NCBI GenBank assembly: GCA_002356435.2
Contig: AP018040.2
Coordinates: forward strand, 186,001 to 250,000
DNA: 64,000 nt
Source: Petrimonas sp. IBARAKI
GTDB lineage: Bacteria; Bacteroidota; Bacteroidia; Bacteroidales; Dysgonomonadaceae
Reading direction: 5' to 3'
Position numbers and translations under genes: made by a program. A model generated the notes under the pieces. It did no database searches, was not told the origin of the DNA, and saw only the letters and a program-made list of their open reading frames with translations. This document shows positions 15,580-22,219 of the stretch, piece after piece. Every line of letters begins with the position of its first letter. Positions within the stretch are counted from its first letter, which is position 1.

Positions 15580-16884
15580 TTAAGACAAGTTTATTAACGC
15601 TTTTTTAAACGCAGCAAAATTCCGGGGGAGCGGATACGATTGTTTTTTTTGTTTCATGAATGCCCCTAATCCTTCGGGAATTTCAATTTCCTTTGCGATA
15701 CAACTCTCCACGGTTTCCTTAAATTTGGCAGGGTGTGCAGTGGCGAGGAAAATACCTGCCTCACCGGCTTTCCGGCCTTCCTTCAGTGCCAGGTAAGCAC
15801 AGGCGCCGTGTGGGTCAAGGAGATAGCTTGATCCTTTGTATACCCCTTTGATAGCCGATTGTATCTCTTCGTCGGAAAACCGGTATCCGGAAATATCTTT
15901 TGAAATGGCTTCGTGAGAGTGTCCGTAAAGGTCGAGGATGCGCTCGAAGTTGCTGGGTGAACCTACGTCCATGGCGTTGGCTATGGTTTGTACAGAGGGC
16001 CGGGGAGTATATTTCCCCGACTGTAGGTATTCCCGAAATACATCGTTGCGGTTGTTAGCGGCAATAAACCGTTTTACCGGTAATCCCATCCGTTTGGCGA
16101 AAAGCCCCGCGGTAAGGTTGCCTAGGTTCCCGCTGGGCACAGACAGGATCACATCCGTAGAAATCCCTTGCCTGGCCAGTTGTGCATAAGCGTAAAAATA
16201 ATAAAACGACTGAGGCAGGAAGCGCGCCACATTGATGGAGTTGGCTGAGGTGAGATTCATCTGCAGGTTTAGTTCTTCATCCATAAACGCCGATTTCACC
16301 AGGGCCTGGCAATCGTCGAACGTCCCGTCAATTTCGAGTGCAACAATATTTTTTCCCAAGGTAGTGAACTGAGCTTCCTGAATATCGCTTACCTTTCCCG
16401 ATGGGTACAAAACGAAAACGCGGATGCCCTTTACTCCCAAAAATCCGTTGGCAACCGCGCTTCCCGTGTCGCCCGAAGTGGCGACCAGTACTTTTACCTC
16501 TTCCTGCCTCTGTTCCTGCACGAAATAGGATAACATCCGTGCCATGAACCGGGCCCCCACATCCTTGAAGGCAAAGGTTGGCCCGTGAAAAAGCTCCAGC
16601 GCATAAATTCCGTCTTCCACCTTTACAAGAGGAATGTCAAAATTGAGCGTGTCGGCAACGATCTCATCCAGTTTTGTTTGTGGGATATCTTCCCCAAAGA
16701 AAGCCCGGGCTACCGTTCTAGCGATGGTTATCAGTCCAAAACGGCCGATTTCATCGAAAAAAACCTCCGGAAGATGGGGGATACTTTCGGGCATATAAAG
16801 CCCCTTGTCGGGAGCAAGTCCTTTTACCACGGCTTCCCGGAGCGATACAACGGGTGCGGACTGGTTGGTGCTGTAATAGTTCAT
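15580..16884 (-). CDS. thrC: Threonine synthase
   Basis: The 434-residue PLP enzyme converts O-phosphohomoserine to threonine. The PLP lysine is K107 in PTFAFKDVGARF, and the phosphate-binding SGDTGSAVANGF and SGNLGNLTAGL segments are present. The N-terminal MNYYSTNQSAPVVSLREAV matches bacterial ThrC. It is the third gene of the threonine operon, starting 3 nt after the preceding stop. Confidence 0.96.
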   Translation of the reverse strand: MNYYSTNQSAPVVSLREAVVKGLAPDKGLYMPESIPHLPEVFFDEIGRFGLITIARTVARAFFGEDIPQTKLDEIVADTLNFDIPLVKVEDGIYALELFHGPTFAFKDVGARFMARMLSYFVQEQRQEEVKVLVATSGDTGSAVANGFLGVKGIRVFVLYPSGKVSDIQEAQFTTLGKNIVALEIDGTFDDCQALVKSAFMDEELNLQMNLTSANSINVARFLPQSFYYFYAYAQLARQGISTDVILSVPSGNLGNLTAGLFAKRMGLPVKRFIAANNRNDVFREYLQSGKYTPRPSVQTIANAMDVGSPSNFERILDLYGHSHEAISKDISGYRFSDEEIQSAIKGVYKGSSYLLDPHGACAYLALKEGRKAGEAGIFLATAHPAKFKETVESCIAKEIEIPEGLGAFMKQKKQSYPLPRNFAAFKKALINLS

Positions 16885-16887
16885 GTT

Positions 16888-18093
16888 CTACAAAATCAGA
16901 TTCTTCATAAATTCATCCCCGCGAAGAAGGCCAAAAACACCTTTTTTCGCAGCAAACTCATCGTATGTTTTTACGCTGTCGGGTTCAATTCCTTTGTGAT
17001 AGACAACAAAAGGAACGGCATCACGGGTGTGTGTGCGGATAGCACAGGGAGTGGGATGGTCGGGCAAGACGGCAATAGTGACGGGTTCGTCCCACGTTGA
17101 GGTTTCTTCGAAAATGGGTTTTACGATGCGCGAATCGAGGTATTCGATGGTTCTCACTTTCAAATCCACATCCCCTTCGTGTCCGGCTTCGTCGCTGGCT
17201 TCAATATGCAGGAAAACAAAATCGTTCTCTTTCAGTGCATCCAGGGCGGCACGGGCCTTCCCTTCGTAGTTGGTGTCGTACAACCCGGTGGCACCTTCCA
17301 CCTGGATAACCTCCAATCCTGCATATACACCGATCCCCCTGATGAGGTCAACGGCCGAGATTACCGCTCCTTTTTGAATAGGATATTTCTTGTTCAGCGG
17401 CTGCATGCCGGGGCGATACCCGGGCGACCACAGCCAGATGCTGTTGGCCGGATCTTTTCCCAGGGCAATCCTCTTTTGATTTACGGGATGAGCCGGCAGT
17501 ATTTCTTGCGAGGCAAGGATCAGTCTGTTCAGTTCGTCAGCAGTGCTTTGGGCGGGCTCTTCGGCCGGTTTGATCAGCAAGGGGTAAAAAGGCTTGTCGG
17601 GAACATCGTGGGGCGGGGTACAAACGATGTTTTTGTTTCCACCTTTCATTTTTAATAAATGGCGGTACGAAACACCGGGATAAAAGCGAAACCGGTCATT
17701 CCCGAGCCTGTCGTCCAGAAAATGAATCAGTTCGGCAGCTTCTGCTGTGGGAATGTGTCCGGCAGAGTGATTCTTCAGCACATCGTTGTCGATAGTCACT
17801 AAATTACACCGCATTGCCATTTCGTCCGGCAGAATATCTACACCCATGCTGGCGGCTTCCAACACACCCCGGCCTTCGTACACCCGGGGAACATCGTATC
17901 CCAACACGGAAAGATTAGCAATTTCGCTTCCCGGAGACATGCCTTCGGGAATGGTGTCGAGCATGCCGCTGCGTCCTTTTTGTGCCAGCCTATCCATATA
18001 CGGTGTTTTGGCTGCCTGTAGGGGCGTCCTGTTGCCGAGTTTTGCAACGGGTTCGTCTGCCATGCCGTCTCCGAGGATGATGATGTATTTCAT
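16888..18093 (-). CDS. apgM: Archaeal-type phosphoglycerate mutase-like protein, probable homoserine kinase
   Basis: The 401-residue protein is an alkaline-phosphatase-fold member of the apgM family: metal site near D9 (IILGDGMADEP), HIEASDEAGHEGD, and DHPTPCAIRTHTRDAVPFVVY. Members are named cofactor-independent phosphoglycerate mutase. Here the gene sits exactly between thrA and thrC (10 and 3 nt gaps), where homoserine kinase is needed and no GHMP-type thrB is present. In Bacteroides this family has been proposed to supply homoserine kinase. The long frame starts at 18201 inside thrA, but MKYIIILGDG at 18093 is the family start. Confidence 0.88.
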   Translation of the reverse strand: MKYIIILGDGMADEPVAKLGNRTPLQAAKTPYMDRLAQKGRSGMLDTIPEGMSPGSEIANLSVLGYDVPRVYEGRGVLEAASMGVDILPDEMAMRCNLVTIDNDVLKNHSAGHIPTAEAAELIHFLDDRLGNDRFRFYPGVSYRHLLKMKGGNKNIVCTPPHDVPDKPFYPLLIKPAEEPAQSTADELNRLILASQEILPAHPVNQKRIALGKDPANSIWLWSPGYRPGMQPLNKKYPIQKGAVISAVDLIRGIGVYAGLEVIQVEGATGLYDTNYEGKARAALDALKENDFVFLHIEASDEAGHEGDVDLKVRTIEYLDSRIVKPIFEETSTWDEPVTIAVLPDHPTPCAIRTHTRDAVPFVVYHKGIEPDSVKTYDEFAAKKGVFGLLRGDEFMKNLIL

Positions 18094-18103
18094 TTTTCTT
18101 TCT

Positions 18104-20548
18104 TTATCGTATGTTCGCAATAGAAATAATGTCGGAAAAAACGCCAGCAGCGGTAACGCTTGCCCCTGCGCCATAGCCTTTGATGACCATCGGATACTCA
18201 TTGTAGCGTTCGGTGGTGATCATAATGATGTTGTTGCTACCTTCCAGGTCGTAGAAAGGATGTCCCTTTTCCACCTCGTGTAAGCCGACTTCGCACAGGC
18301 CGTTGTCGTACGTAGCAATAAAGCGGAGCTTTTTCCCTTCTTTATCGAGTTTTTTTCTCCGGTTTTCAAAAGCTTCATCCATTTCGGGGATGGTTGACCA
18401 GAACTCATCAAGGGTGCTTTCGAAATACTTTTGCGGGATGAACAGGTGCTTTTGCACATTTTCCTGTTCCACTTGAGCGCCGGCTTCCCGGGAAAGGATT
18501 ACCAATTTGCGGGTAACATCCAATCCGCTCAGGTCGATACGGGGGTCGGGCTCGGCAAACTGAGCGTCCACCGCCATTTTTATGGCTTTGCTAAAAGGAA
18601 CATCCTCGCTCAGGGTATTGAAAATAAAGTTCAGTGTCCCCGATAGTACTGCTTGGAGCTTGACGATTTTATCTCCCGAGTTGGTGAGGGAGTTCATCGT
18701 GTTGATAATGGGCAATCCCGCCCCTACATTGGTTTCGAAAAGAAATTTTGTTCCGGTTTTTCGGGCGGTCTCCTTCAGGTGATGGTAGTTCTTGTAGTCG
18801 GACGAGGCTGCAATTTTGTTTGCCGTCACCACTGATATATTTCTGGATATCAGACTTTCATACAATTCTGAAATGGCCTGGCTGGCAGTACAATCCACAA
18901 AGACGGAATTGAAGATATTCATTTTGAGTATTTCATCCCGGATCAGTTGAGGTGAACTTTTGACGCCCCTGGACATCAGGTTTTCGAAGTAATTCTCGAG
19001 GGAAATCCCGTCGCGCGAGAACAAGGCTTTTCGTCCGTTGGCAATTCCTACAATGTTTATTTTCAGCTTGTTCTGTTCCTCTAAAATGTGCTTTTGCTGC
19101 TTAATCTGTGCCAGCAGTTTGCTCCCGACCGTTCCGGTTCCGATAACGAAAAGGTTTAATTCCTGGTAAGGCGACAAGAAGAACGAATCGTGGATGATGT
19201 TGAGTGCTTTTTTCAGGTTGGTTTTGGCGATCACGCAGGAAATATTGGTTTCCGATGCACCCTGAGCTAGCGCGACAACGCTGATACCACCCCTTCCCAA
19301 CGTTCCGAAAAATTTGCCGGCAACCCCCGGCACGTGTTTCATGTTTTGTCCCACTACGGCAATGGTTGCCAGGTCGTATTCGACAATAATCTCGTTGATG
19401 CTTCCCCTCTCTATCTCTTTCGCAAATTCTTTGCTGAGTACTTTTTGGGAAAGCGGGGCATCTTGGGTGCGGACTCCGATGGATGTGCTGTTTTCGGAGG
19501 ATGCTTGGGAGACCAGAAAAACGCTGATGCCGTTATCCGCCAATGCCGTGAAGATCCGTTTGTTTACGCCGATAACTCCTACCATGCCGAGTCCTTGTAT
19601 GGTAATCAGGGCGGTATCGTTGATCGACGAGATGCCTTTGATTATTTTTCCGTTAGGGGTCGGCTTTATATTGCGGATAAGTGTGCCCTCCGAAGCAGGT
19701 TTGAAAGTATTCTTTACGCGGATAGGTATGCTTTTGTGGTAGACGGGGAAGATGGTTGGGGGATAAATCACTTTTGCCCCGAAGTTGGAAAGCTCAATGG
19801 CCTCCGTAAACGAGAGTTCTTCAATGACGTAAGCCGAGTTGATGATTTTGGGGTCGGCCGTCATGAAGCCATCCACATCCGTCCATATTTCCAGCACAGA
19901 AGCGTTAAGTGCAGCAGCGATAATGGCGGCGGTATAGTCCGATCCACCCCGGCCCAGGTTAGTGATATCGTCCGCCTCCTTGCTCGACGAGATAAATCCA
20001 GGAACTATAGCCACTTTGGGAAGCGGGTCACTTAAAAATGCCTGCTTGATCAGTTCGTTGGAATACGCGATGTCGGGGATGTGATGGCTGAATTGTTTTG
20101 TGGTCTTGATAAACTGAGTGGAATCATAAACTCTAGCCCCGTCGATTATTTTGCTTACGATTAGCGAGGAGAAACGTTCGCCGTAGCTGACGATCTTGTC
20201 CGATGTCTTCTGCGACAGGTCTCCGATCAGGTAAACACCCCGCAATATGTTGCGCAGGTCTTCGAACATCGGGTCGATTTTCTGCCTCAGTTCCTTTTGA
20301 TCGACAGCGGAAACTACCATTTCCCTGATCATCTCCTCGTGTCGGAAGATGATTTCTTCCAATATCGATTGGTAACCCGGGTTTGCATTTAACGCAAAAT
20401 CTGCCGCCAGTAAAAGACGGTCGGTCACACCTCCAAGAGCGGAGACCACTACAATCACCGGCTCTTTTTCAGCTTCTATGATGTTTTTGACCAAAAGCAT
20501 ACTTTCGGGAGTCCCTGCGGATGTCCCTCCGAATTTCATAACTTTCAT
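18104..20548 (-). CDS. thrA: Bifunctional aspartate kinase / homoserine dehydrogenase
   Basis: The 814-residue fusion carries out the first and third steps of threonine and methionine synthesis. The aspartokinase domain opens with MKVMKFGGTSAGTPESM, and two ACT regions follow at about 310-450. The homoserine dehydrogenase Rossmann loop IGTGTVGSKLL lies near residue 465, with the catalytic region LSGTLNFIFN later. The open frame extends 30 codons upstream, but KFGGTS proteins start as chosen. It heads the thrA-apgM-thrC operon, and a threonine-rich leader lies about 125 nt upstream. Confidence 0.96.
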   Translation of the reverse strand: MKVMKFGGTSAGTPESMLLVKNIIEAEKEPVIVVVSALGGVTDRLLLAADFALNANPGYQSILEEIIFRHEEMIREMVVSAVDQKELRQKIDPMFEDLRNILRGVYLIGDLSQKTSDKIVSYGERFSSLIVSKIIDGARVYDSTQFIKTTKQFSHHIPDIAYSNELIKQAFLSDPLPKVAIVPGFISSSKEADDITNLGRGGSDYTAAIIAAALNASVLEIWTDVDGFMTADPKIINSAYVIEELSFTEAIELSNFGAKVIYPPTIFPVYHKSIPIRVKNTFKPASEGTLIRNIKPTPNGKIIKGISSINDTALITIQGLGMVGVIGVNKRIFTALADNGISVFLVSQASSENSTSIGVRTQDAPLSQKVLSKEFAKEIERGSINEIIVEYDLATIAVVGQNMKHVPGVAGKFFGTLGRGGISVVALAQGASETNISCVIAKTNLKKALNIIHDSFFLSPYQELNLFVIGTGTVGSKLLAQIKQQKHILEEQNKLKINIVGIANGRKALFSRDGISLENYFENLMSRGVKSSPQLIRDEILKMNIFNSVFVDCTASQAISELYESLISRNISVVTANKIAASSDYKNYHHLKETARKTGTKFLFETNVGAGLPIINTMNSLTNSGDKIVKLQAVLSGTLNFIFNTLSEDVPFSKAIKMAVDAQFAEPDPRIDLSGLDVTRKLVILSREAGAQVEQENVQKHLFIPQKYFESTLDEFWSTIPEMDEAFENRRKKLDKEGKKLRFIATYDNGLCEVGLHEVEKGHPFYDLEGSNNIIMITTERYNEYPMVIKGYGAGASVTAAGVFSDIISIANIR

Positions 20549-20672
20549 GTGTATGAATATATTTTTACCGTTGTGAACGGTTTTTTTAATGAAACAAAAA
20601 AAAGTAGGATGGCATGTGGCAAACCGGTTGATTTGCATGTGGCAAACAGCGTTGCCGTGTGGATGTAAAATA
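20549..20672 (-). promoter_or_regulatory. Candidate attenuator RNA between the threonine leader and thrA
   Basis: After the leader stop codon the transcript can form GGCAA-loop-TTGCC. The pairing TTGCC occurs twice, within two 13-nt direct repeats (plus-strand GCATGTGGCAAAC at 20612-20624 and 20635-20647), so alternative pairings exclude each other. A run of eight U follows (complement of 20594-20601). I do not see a clean terminator stem touching the U run, so the mechanism is only proposed. A small hairpin (ACCGTT-CACA-ACGGT) lies just before thrA. Confidence 0.4.
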
Positions 20673-20741
20673 TTATATAACCCCCCAGGGGGTCATAGTC
20701 ATAGTGAAGGGAGTCGTGTATGTTGAATGTGAAAAAATCAT
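20673..20741 (-). CDS. Threonine-rich leader peptide of the threonine operon
   Basis: A 22-codon frame with six threonine codons (positions 7, 9, 10, 13, 15 and 17) ends in TMTMTPWGVI and a TAA stop. It begins about 14 nt after a predicted transcription start and ends 124 nt before thrA. The layout matches amino-acid attenuation leaders such as enterobacterial thrL, where ribosome stalling at Thr and Ile codons controls readthrough. The last codons overlap a very stable ACCCC-CTGG-GGGGT hairpin. No homolog is claimed; the call rests on composition and position. Confidence 0.55.
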   Translation of the reverse strand: MIFSHSTYTTPFTMTMTPWGVI

Positions 20742-20761
20742 CGCAACGTCTAAATATATTG

Positions 20762-20769
20762 CAAAGATA
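20762..20769 (-). promoter_or_regulatory. -7 box of the threonine operon
   Basis: TATCTTTG on the minus strand fits TAnnTTTG and would start transcription near 20755, just before the leader peptide. No good -33 element is seen in the AT-rich sequence upstream. Confidence 0.45.
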
Positions 20770-20835
20770 AAGGAATAATTTAAGAAAATGATAAAAATGC
20801 TGAAAAAATGGAGGTTAAACAATAAAAATAAAACA

Positions 20836-20873
20836 AACACCCCAACCAGCAATTCAAAGCTGGTTGGGGTGTT
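20836..20873 (-). terminator. Rho-independent terminator after the sorbose-1-phosphate reductase-like gene
   Basis: A perfect 15-bp inverted repeat (arms 20836-20850 and 20859-20873, core CACCCCAACCAGC) has an 8-nt loop. On the minus strand it is followed by TGTTTTATTTTTATT. It lies 75 nt after the dehydrogenase stop and ends the E2-E3-E1-aldolase-dehydrogenase unit. Confidence 0.85.
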
Positions 20874-20947
20874 GAAAAATAAAGAATGAATTTATTTTAT
20901 ACGTCTCCCATCAATTTTATTGACTAGAACCTTACGCTTCGTTTTAT

Positions 20948-22219
20948 TCATTTTACAATATTCGCTAGCAAATAATTTTCTGCTTCTACGCTCCACATTC
21001 CCTTATGGTTGTTACATATATTGGCTAGTTCTTTGAACAGCTCACTGGTTTTCCCTAATTTCTCAAAGTCAGTGATAGGGGTTAATGGCATTGTTAAATG
21101 CGTATATATAAGTTTTTTACCTCCAGGAATATTGGGAAGATTATTGGTTGCTTCCACTACTGCATCAAGCCCTCCTATGTGAGTGACCAGACCTGCAGGG
21201 TCAAGTCCTTTGTTCATAATATCTAGCGCTTCTATCATGTCGTCATTGTTCCCTCCGCTCGTGCCCACAATATGAGTATAAGCGTAATGAACGTTGTAGA
21301 AATTAAGCATTGCTCCAAAGTTGGGATCATTTGGACCGGCGAAGAAGTTGAGACAACCATCAAAAGCAAGGATAGCATCACCCTGTTCCACCACAGGCTT
21401 TACAGCCGCAAAGACGAACACATCATCATACCCGGTATCACCGCTAAGAGCCTTCAGTTCTTTGATTGGGTCGGATATTTTTCCGGTGTTAACATAATGT
21501 AAGTCAATGTTTTTTGATGCGGCGAATTCAGTGGTATAGATTGCTGCTGCCCTGTCTAGGCGTGATTGATCCATATCGGTTACCACTAGCAGGGAAGGTT
21601 TACGTTCCTCTCGATGTAGCACATAATTGATTGCAGCAAGTCCCATTGGACCTACTCCTGCGAGTATCGCCATTTTTCCACCGTCTACTATCTCCATTTT
21701 GTGTTTATAACTACCTGGGATAGTATGGTAGTTTGCGTGCATGGCACCGATTACGCATGAGAGTGGCTCGGCCAGCGATGCGGGATAATAACCCTCTCCT
21801 TGATAGGAAAGCAAACAACCCTGTTCCATTACTTCGTTAGGAATGATTACATATGTAGCATCCCCTCCAATATATTTATAACTATAACCTGGAGCGCTTA
21901 ATATGCCTACCGGACCCTTTTCATAATAGAGTGCCGGCTGAATAGAGAATTTATCTCCTGGCTTAAATTTGTTGGTCCACTTGGCTCCGATCTCCAATAG
22001 TTCTCCAGTGAACTCATGTCCGATGATGATTGGGTTTTCTGCCACATCGTTAGGTATTCGTTTATGATCTATACCCTGTGTCGATGCCTTATAAGAAGAC
22101 ATACACAATGAATCAGATACCACTTTGGCCAAGATTTCATCTTCCTTAATTGGTGGTAATTCAAACTCCTCCAGACGGAGATCTCTTTTACCGTAAAGTC
22201 TTACTGCTCTTGTTTTCAT
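20948..22219 (-). CDS. Zinc-type alcohol dehydrogenase, L-sorbose-1-phosphate reductase-like
   Basis: The 423-residue medium-chain dehydrogenase resembles SorE-type reductases. It has an N-terminal GroES-like domain with LCMSSYKA and NPIIIGHEFTGELLEIG, and a nucleotide-binding domain with the loop LAGVGPMGLAAINYVL near residue 200. The frame opens earlier, but MKTRAVRLYGKRDLRLEEF at 22219 is the family start. It lies 168 nt after the aldolase gene and before a strong terminator. The partner aldolase suggests oxidation or reduction of a ketose or polyol phosphate; the substrate is not certain. Base composition is AT-richer than the E1-E3 genes upstream. Confidence 0.8.
   Translation of the reverse strand: MKTRAVRLYGKRDLRLEEFELPPIKEDEILAKVVSDSLCMSSYKASTQGIDHKRIPNDVAENPIIIGHEFTGELLEIGAKWTNKFKPGDKFSIQPALYYEKGPVGILSAPGYSYKYIGGDATYVIIPNEVMEQGCLLSYQGEGYYPASLAEPLSCVIGAMHANYHTIPGSYKHKMEIVDGGKMAILAGVGPMGLAAINYVLHREERKPSLLVVTDMDQSRLDRAAAIYTTEFAASKNIDLHYVNTGKISDPIKELKALSGDTGYDDVFVFAAVKPVVEQGDAILAFDGCLNFFAGPNDPNFGAMLNFYNVHYAYTHIVGTSGGNNDDMIEALDIMNKGLDPAGLVTHIGGLDAVVEATNNLPNIPGGKKLIYTHLTMPLTPITDFEKLGKTSELFKELANICNNHKGMWSVEAENYLLANIVK

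Follow-up and report, generated by a model that had tools for sequence, protein, structure and literature searches.

Organization of the threonine locus

The window, a stretch of 64,000 nucleotides from Petrimonas sp. IBARAKI, carries thrA for a bifunctional aspartokinase/homoserine dehydrogenase I (18104..20548; NF006959, 994.6 bits), an apgM-type gene for a proposed homoserine kinase (16888..18093; TIGR02535, 562.3 bits), which also matches the cofactor-independent phosphoglycerate mutase model NF003242 with 574.8 bits, and thrC for threonine synthase (15580..16884; TIGR00260, 307.3 bits). By position, these three minus-strand genes form a threonine-making operon directly downstream of a short Thr-rich frame, so that a leader precedes the biosynthetic operon for its own amino acid, as expected of an attenuator. 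All features of this leader lie on the minus strand and are given in window coordinates.

Reading towards thrA, the region begins with a promoter box, TATCTTTG (20762..20769, read directly in the sequence), which we take to be a Bacteroidota-type -7 box. A box of the TANNTTTG kind occupies the same place in 52 of 55 family sequences, the exceptions being L038 (none in range), L065 (misplaced) and L072 (misplaced or doubtful); L065 and L216, with wrongly placed boxes, and L072 were excluded from the pairing tests described below. The leader frame (20673..20741; 22 codons and TAA) encodes MIFSHSTYTTPFTMTMTPWGVI and contains six Thr codons (ACA, ACG, ACT, ACT, ACT and ACC), and its stop codon lies 124 nt before the thrA ATG (20548). 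Its last codons, ATGACCCC-CTGG-GGGGTTAT, form a stable CCCC/GGGG hairpin, P1 (TATGACCCC-CTGG-GGGGTTATA; 20676..20697), whose 5' arm contains the last Thr codon (ACC) and a Pro codon, the stop codon following just 3' of the hairpin. Box, frame, distance to thrA and hairpin agree with an earlier sequence-only reading of this DNA, as does a 13-bp direct repeat at 20635-20647 and 20612-20624. That reading had placed the start of the frame about 14 nt after the box; the actual distance is 20 nt, and 14 nt would fit a transcription start, itself unmapped, about 6 nt after the box.

P1 is followed by a linker with a U-rich tract, ATTTTACATCC (20661..20671), which the U fraction in 52 family sequences marks as a candidate RNA polymerase pause zone, and then by the hairpins P2, GGCAA(cgctgt)TTGCC (20641..20656), and P3, GCAAATC(aacc)GGTTTGC (20619..20636). 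By inspection, a pre-leader CGTTGC (20743..20748) is complementary to GCAACG of P2 (20650-20655), a pairing that would close the leader start region. A run of eight U (U8) is indeed present (20596..20603), 15 nt after P3, and U-rich sequence at a similar distance recurs by inspection in many family members. Just before the thrA start lies P4, ACCGTT(cac)AACGGT (20567..20581), of which CCGTT..AACGG is exact in five of eight genus-mates and altered in L003, L008 and L009. The stretch 20549-20759 folds better than its shuffles (z -2.89). At 20836-20873, close upstream of the thr promoter, the window also has a strong terminator hairpin of 15 bp (AACACCCCAACCAGC..); L002, from the same species, has another sequence at this site, and the neighbourhood has therefore changed close to the promoter.

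The leader frame evolves like coding DNA

The leader frame is open in all eight usable genus-mates, one of which (L002) belongs to the same species; a ninth (L010) is cut by a contig end and was left out of the eight. The peptides of these genus-mates end in MTPWGVI, MAPQGVI, MTPQGVI or MTPMGVI. For a broader comparison, the 45 nt before P1 were taken from 51 distinct family and 32 distinct Bacteroides-type sequences. Stop codons interrupt the leader frame in 1/51 and 0/32 of these and frame 1 in 46/51 and 27/32, respectively; frame 2 is mostly open too, with stops in 4/51 and 1/32. Threonine is concentrated in the leader frame, with 4.6 (family) and 3.4 (Bacteroides-type) residues per 15 codons against at most 1.2 in the other frames. 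Differences at codon positions 1, 2 and 3 number 233, 198 and 501 in the family (157 pairs) and 130, 237 and 434 in the Bacteroides type (119 pairs). Judged by these comparisons, the leader frame evolves like coding DNA, and the coding signal and the Thr enrichment together give what is expected of an attenuator, namely a short ORF rich in codons for the product of its operon. Neither of two outcomes that had been named in advance as grounds for abandoning the leader, a frame not conserved in close relatives or evolution like noncoding DNA, was encountered.

Threonine codons run right up to the hairpin, which is itself opened by the last of them. Counted back from P1, Thr occupies position -2, -4, -5 and -6 in fractions of 0.85, 0.79, 0.67 and 0.63 of 52 family sequences, position -2, -6 and -8 in 0.85, 0.67 and 0.76 of 33 Bacteroides-type sequences, and each of the positions -1 to -6 in 0.33 to 0.63 of 27 other sequences.

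Distribution of the leader

The same type of leader, in which Thr codons before thrA lead into an ACCC(C)/GGGGU hairpin, occurs from the family to the phylum. It was counted by a rule applied to the 350 nt upstream of thrA, which asked for an open frame from ATG whose last 12 codons include two or more Thr, for a C-run/G-run hairpin that begins with a Thr codon, and for a stop within 12 codons. Four sets of loci were used. The family set comprised 90 fetched loci, chosen without second copies, weak matches to a single domain and a few further places such as G037 and G094, the order set 49 of 53 non-window places, and the phylum set the best 29 new places from the 129 of 148 genomes with a match; together with a genome-contig set, they lost 5 (family), 2 (order), 2 (phylum) and 1 (genome-contig) loci that had no recognised start or less than 250 nt of upstream sequence. 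Of the usable loci, the rule then held for 52 of 85 in the family, 17 of 47 in the order, 9 of 27 in the phylum and 47 of 79 in the genome-contig set; the sets overlap, as 13 of these last 47 are family members (the rest being mostly Bacteroides) and L169 and L177 repeat family genomes. Shuffled sequences gave expectations of 0.05 for the family, 0.00 for the order, 0.05 for the genome-contig set and 0.00 for the phylum, and no reverse strand satisfied the rule. Carriers include Bacteroides fragilis (L229), B. fluxus (L206), B. salyersiae (L228) and Proteiniphilum MAGs.

The rule was missed in 33/85 family, 30/47 order and 18/27 phylum loci, and the leader is therefore dispensable. In the family, these are mostly whole genera: by the rule, no Thr leader was found in any fetched locus of the genera g3 and g4. 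The Prevotella-titled records, too, lack it by the rule. L083 and L085-L109, mostly of g3 and g4, retain thrA without a rule-defined Thr leader. The P1 motif is nevertheless present in three family loci that miss the rule, L026, L038 and L065. Ala has replaced the last Thr in L026, and the distance from P1 to thrA exceeds 350 nt in L038. L227 also misses the rule through loss of the Thr codon at P1.

The idea that P1 is a module shared by several operons was rejected, since a covariance model of it (R1), run with the stricter filters of Infernal, finds only the thrA copy in the Petrimonas genome. Beyond the window and G092, a member of the same family, R1 matches stay at chance level (40 of 393 genomes at E<=0.1, about 39 expected). 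No control-codon leader was seen before ilvD and no P1-type leader before hisG, which has a canonical leader of its own.

P1 and the U-rich sequence behind it

By sequence comparison, the best conserved parts of the element are P1, which overlaps the last Thr codon, and the U-rich sequence about 10-16 nt past its G-run. In 41 family sequences, five of the eight P1 pairs never vary, and the ACCC(C)..GGGG core recurs in other families; P1 is conserved in sequence with almost no covariation. Six of 52 family sequences have changed TGG to TAG, which moves the stop to two codons past the P1 Thr codon and ends the peptide in ..MTP with the hairpin intact; it is therefore the RNA, not the WGV tail, that is kept. 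The stop lies four codons past the P1 Thr codon in 33/33 Bacteroides-type sequences and two codons past it in 14/27 sequences of other families.

Past the G-run, the U fraction reaches 0.75-0.92 at nt 10-13 in the family (n=52); Bacteroides shows 0.70-0.94 at nt 14-16, and the remaining sequences 0.52-0.81 at nt 11-13. This spacing, on which the pause reading is based, is blurred by other U-rich positions. All three groups have a high U fraction at nt 1 (0.89-1.0; 0.89 in the others), and the family and Bacteroides reach 1.0 at nt 1-2; U is further frequent at nt 4 and 6 in family sequences, and in Bacteroides its fraction is 0.67-0.79 at nt 18 and 20-22. If the count starts instead where the longer P1 stem of the family ends, inspection places the U tract only about 5 nt away. 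The tract may be a site of polymerase pausing. Kissing of the P1 and P3 loops was discarded, as by inspection it is not kept.

Folding downstream of P1 and a possible long-range pairing

Compared with shuffles, the 78 nt after P1 fold more stably in the family (n=54, mean z -2.05) and not unusually in Bacteroides (mean z -0.45). RNAalifold returned only P1 from the family alignment, in which P2 and P3 align poorly. At the place of P2, inspection finds stems of other sequence in relatives, such as AAGCAG/CTGCTT, AAACAA/TTGTTT and GCGGC/GCCGC. P3 is a covarying hairpin by comparison of 41 family sequences, with changes on both sides in six of seven pairs and 77.1% of cells paired. The covariation score of the combined P1 and P3 structure exceeds all 500 shuffles, though its number of double-changed pairs was reached by 36 of 500, in a test in which related sequences can exceed shuffles without any structure; a register slid by -1 still scored 0.087, against 0.127. 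Rows with wrongly picked hairpins were not used (L161 among the P1 stems; L166, L168, L275, L280, L284, L286 and L312 among the single-sequence folds).

In Bacteroides, the pre-leader GUAGAAAC and the early leader codons (AAGUACUAUCC) are complementary to the linker GGAUAGUAUUU..GUUUCUAC, and by inspection L263, L225 and L230 retain this pairing despite changed letters. True partners paired better than mismatched ones in the Bacteroides type (p=0.018, 13 representatives); with a longer 3' target the value was p=0.20 (18 representatives), and in the family it was 0.07 (19 representatives) and 0.08 (27 representatives). Taking the whole leader as partner gave no excess in Bacteroides (2336/5000) and a modest one in the family (157/5000). 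We regard a long-range pairing over the leader start as likely in Bacteroides and as no more than possible elsewhere. A pairing of the transcript 5' end with the thrA start, suggested by a single-sequence fold, was dropped, as inspection shows that it is not kept in relatives.

Search for a terminator

A further hallmark of an attenuator, a canonical terminator, was not found between the leader start and thrA in the window, where P1 is the only minus-strand terminator-like match (tail TAATATTT). Of 55 family sequences, 40 have a terminator-like match between P1 and thrA (4.4 expected), as do 11 of 37 Bacteroides-type sequences (2.9 expected); these counts include the identical pairs L020/L021 and L159/L212. 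In 38 of the 40 positive family sequences the match is P1 itself, with poor tails such as TAAATTTT and TAATTTTT, and in five (L048, L059, L075, L076 and L077) P2 and a U-run look terminator-like.

The sequence-only reading had proposed a Thr leader peptide with a possible attenuator in which GGCAA pairs in mutually exclusive ways with two TTGCC copies ahead of the U8 run. The peptide is strongly supported by its conserved frame and Thr codons and by third-position variation, and U8 is present; the attenuator is not supported. Because 15 nt separate U8 from the last stem, P3, it is not a canonical terminator tail. Comparison of thrA upstream regions in relatives, as that reading had advised, found the frame and the Thr codons conserved, but not the GGCAA/TTGCC pairings: both TTGCC copies are exact in only two of eight genus-mates (L002 and L003), five keep one, and L009 has neither. 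We rejected this switch, since the second copy is lost within the genus and P2 and P3 differ in sequence in other genera.

Discussion

Leader-peptide control of threonine synthesis before thrA is well supported by these comparisons, because the frame is intact and coding-like and the combination of leader and P1 recurs far above shuffled expectation. The Thr-rich frame and P1 probably act together as a threonine sensor read by the ribosome. A close known system is the leader of the enteric thr operon (thrL), a short Thr-rich peptide before a thrA-led threonine operon. Our element resembles it in exactly this arrangement and in the presumed readout of Thr-tRNA charging, and differs from it in lacking a canonical terminator in the window and in the conserved ACCC(C)/GGGGU hairpin that lies within the last part of its ORF. 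The corresponding Rfam family Thr_leader, RF00506, gave no gathering-level match in the window or seven related loci, nor was it among the 10 Rfam matches up to E=10 at 20480-20960. No Rfam family matches the thr leader, Bacteroid-trp (RF01692) included. The enteric thr leader contains eight ACC codons, according to a passage of PMC1183508.

Leader-peptide attenuation as a kind is old, and candidates exist in this phylum; the earlier remark that no equivalent is known there was too strong in view of what PMC2864571 (Bacteroid-trp) and PMC9723704 (flavobacterial leaders) report. The former lists Bacteroid-trp as cis-regulatory in Bacteroidetes in its Table 1, and the latter reports strong clues that leader peptides attenuate amino-acid operons in a flavobacterium and names conserved 5' elements before hisG and pheA in flavobacteria. 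Leader-like sORFs in long 5' UTRs are described for B. thetaiotaomicron in PMC7366714. The words aspartokinase and homoserine are absent from the main text of PMC8040213, and among the matches listed by our literature search, no thr leader-peptide case was found for the phylum. The thr case is new as far as this search shows.

The Petrimonas genome itself offers two further leaders for comparison. Bacteroid-trp matches at C1:3488432-3488571 (L126 255-395) with 38.5 bits, below the cut-off of 49, and by eye this trp leader holds a frame, MNISLANGYWWRYLQLNRS, before an apparent trpB; a GC-rich terminator-like hairpin followed by TTTTCG can be read on the coding strand, the terminator scan having scored only the opposite strand of this hairpin. 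Like the thr leader, it is a control-codon leader before an amino-acid operon in the same phylum; unlike it, the trp leader is separated from its gene by this terminator-like hairpin, and its ORF does not end in a hairpin of the P1 type. The hisG leader (L317 minus strand, about 2107-2224; C1 near 1899.5-1899.6 kb) encodes MKVNKLHHHHFHTCNQAS, followed before hisG by a 12-bp terminator with a T-run, resembling a textbook attenuator. Both the his and the thr leader are control-codon leaders, but only the former has such a terminator.

We consider it moderately probable that the thr leader measures charged Thr-tRNA and sets thrA-apgM-thrC expression through a pause at P1 and the position of the ribosome. 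The transcript would begin with the translated Thr-rich peptide, whose translation gauges Thr-tRNA charging, and P1 would form behind RNA polymerase and hold it at the U-rich sequence, as a hairpin-stabilised pause, until the first ribosome arrives. A polymerase-holding hairpin fits what these leaders share, namely Thr codons next to and within P1, a stop in or right after P1, and U-rich sequence further on. In the E. coli trp leader, a passage of PMC1183508 describes a pause hairpin that overlaps the control-codon ORF and holds polymerase until the ribosome arrives. P1 overlaps its control-codon ORF like the E. coli trp/his pause hairpin treated there, and its pause role is proposed by this analogy; unlike that hairpin, P1 is the part best conserved across families, in sequence and in pairing. 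A ribosome on the Thr codons would displace P1, and one stalled there, beside the hairpin, would keep P1 and the downstream RNA in an "on" form. If the ribosome reaches the stop, in or just past P1, it would instead leave, the long-range pairing would fold the leader start away, and transcription or translation of thrA would then be cut back. Because no canonical terminator was found, Rho-dependent or other non-canonical termination is our first guess for this off step, the candidates for which are Rho-dependent termination, atypical termination at P1 and translational control.

The second of these possibilities can be taken further, to P1 as an atypical intrinsic terminator at the ORF end that a ribosome stalled on its 5' arm blocks directly, with no antiterminator. 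The excess of terminator-like matches, P1 being one in 38 of 40 family sequences, speaks for it, and so do the T6-T7 run after P1 in L161, L163, L167, L168 and L185 and the further pairs that extend the P1 stem in L166 and L168. Yet in most groups the main U-rich stretch lies about 10 nt from the G-run, many members of the phylum have a P1 of 5-6 bp followed by mixed AU sequence, and it can be argued that without starvation, too, a ribosome following polymerase closely would block P1; we regard this explanation as unlikely. Similarly doubtful, in our judgement, is control of translation or decay of the thrA message, with P2, P3 and P4 switching access to the thrA start. It would suit the lack of a canonical terminator, the long and variable spacers to thrA and the P4-type hairpin that the window and its genus-mates have just ahead of the start of thrA, but no conserved pairing between a leader element and the thrA start was noticed in single-sequence folds.

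The classical attenuator with a terminator ending at U8 has in its favour that the alternative pairings exist in the window, and the five family sequences in which P2 and a U-run resemble a terminator; it is nevertheless improbable, given the loss of the second TTGCC copy in most genus-mates, the different P2 and P3 in the rest of the family, the gap before U8, and the his and trp leaders of the same genome, which show a proper terminator and a GC-rich hairpin with TTTTCG. That P1 could be a protein-binding or DNA element next to an incidental Thr-rich frame is suggested by its sequence conservation with almost no covariation. This reading is largely refuted by the codon-position and frame test, that is, by third-position bias and Thr enrichment in one frame only, and where the stop has moved into the P1 loop, the frame is open up to that stop; we give it hardly any weight.

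To return to the ribosome-read sensor, a bolder and decidedly tentative version of it would hold that the thr sensor is old and common to the Bacteroidota. A single, strongly conserved hairpin within the end of the ORF, made of Thr-Pro or Thr-Leu codons (ACC CYN) facing GGGGU, would then be the whole ribosome-read switch; it would set a pause about 10-16 nt downstream, a non-canonical, probably Rho-dependent step would decide transcription, and the downstream folds would be free to change between genera.

As the element is present in Bacteroides species, it is testable with existing genetics, and it would enable annotators to spot leader peptides missed so far upstream of thrA. Natural Shine-Dalgarno sites are rare in Bacteroidota, and the thr leader is a case of leader-peptide control where such sites are rare and an ordinary terminator is not seen. 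As far as our literature search shows, leader-peptide control of threonine synthesis has been undescribed for this large phylum.
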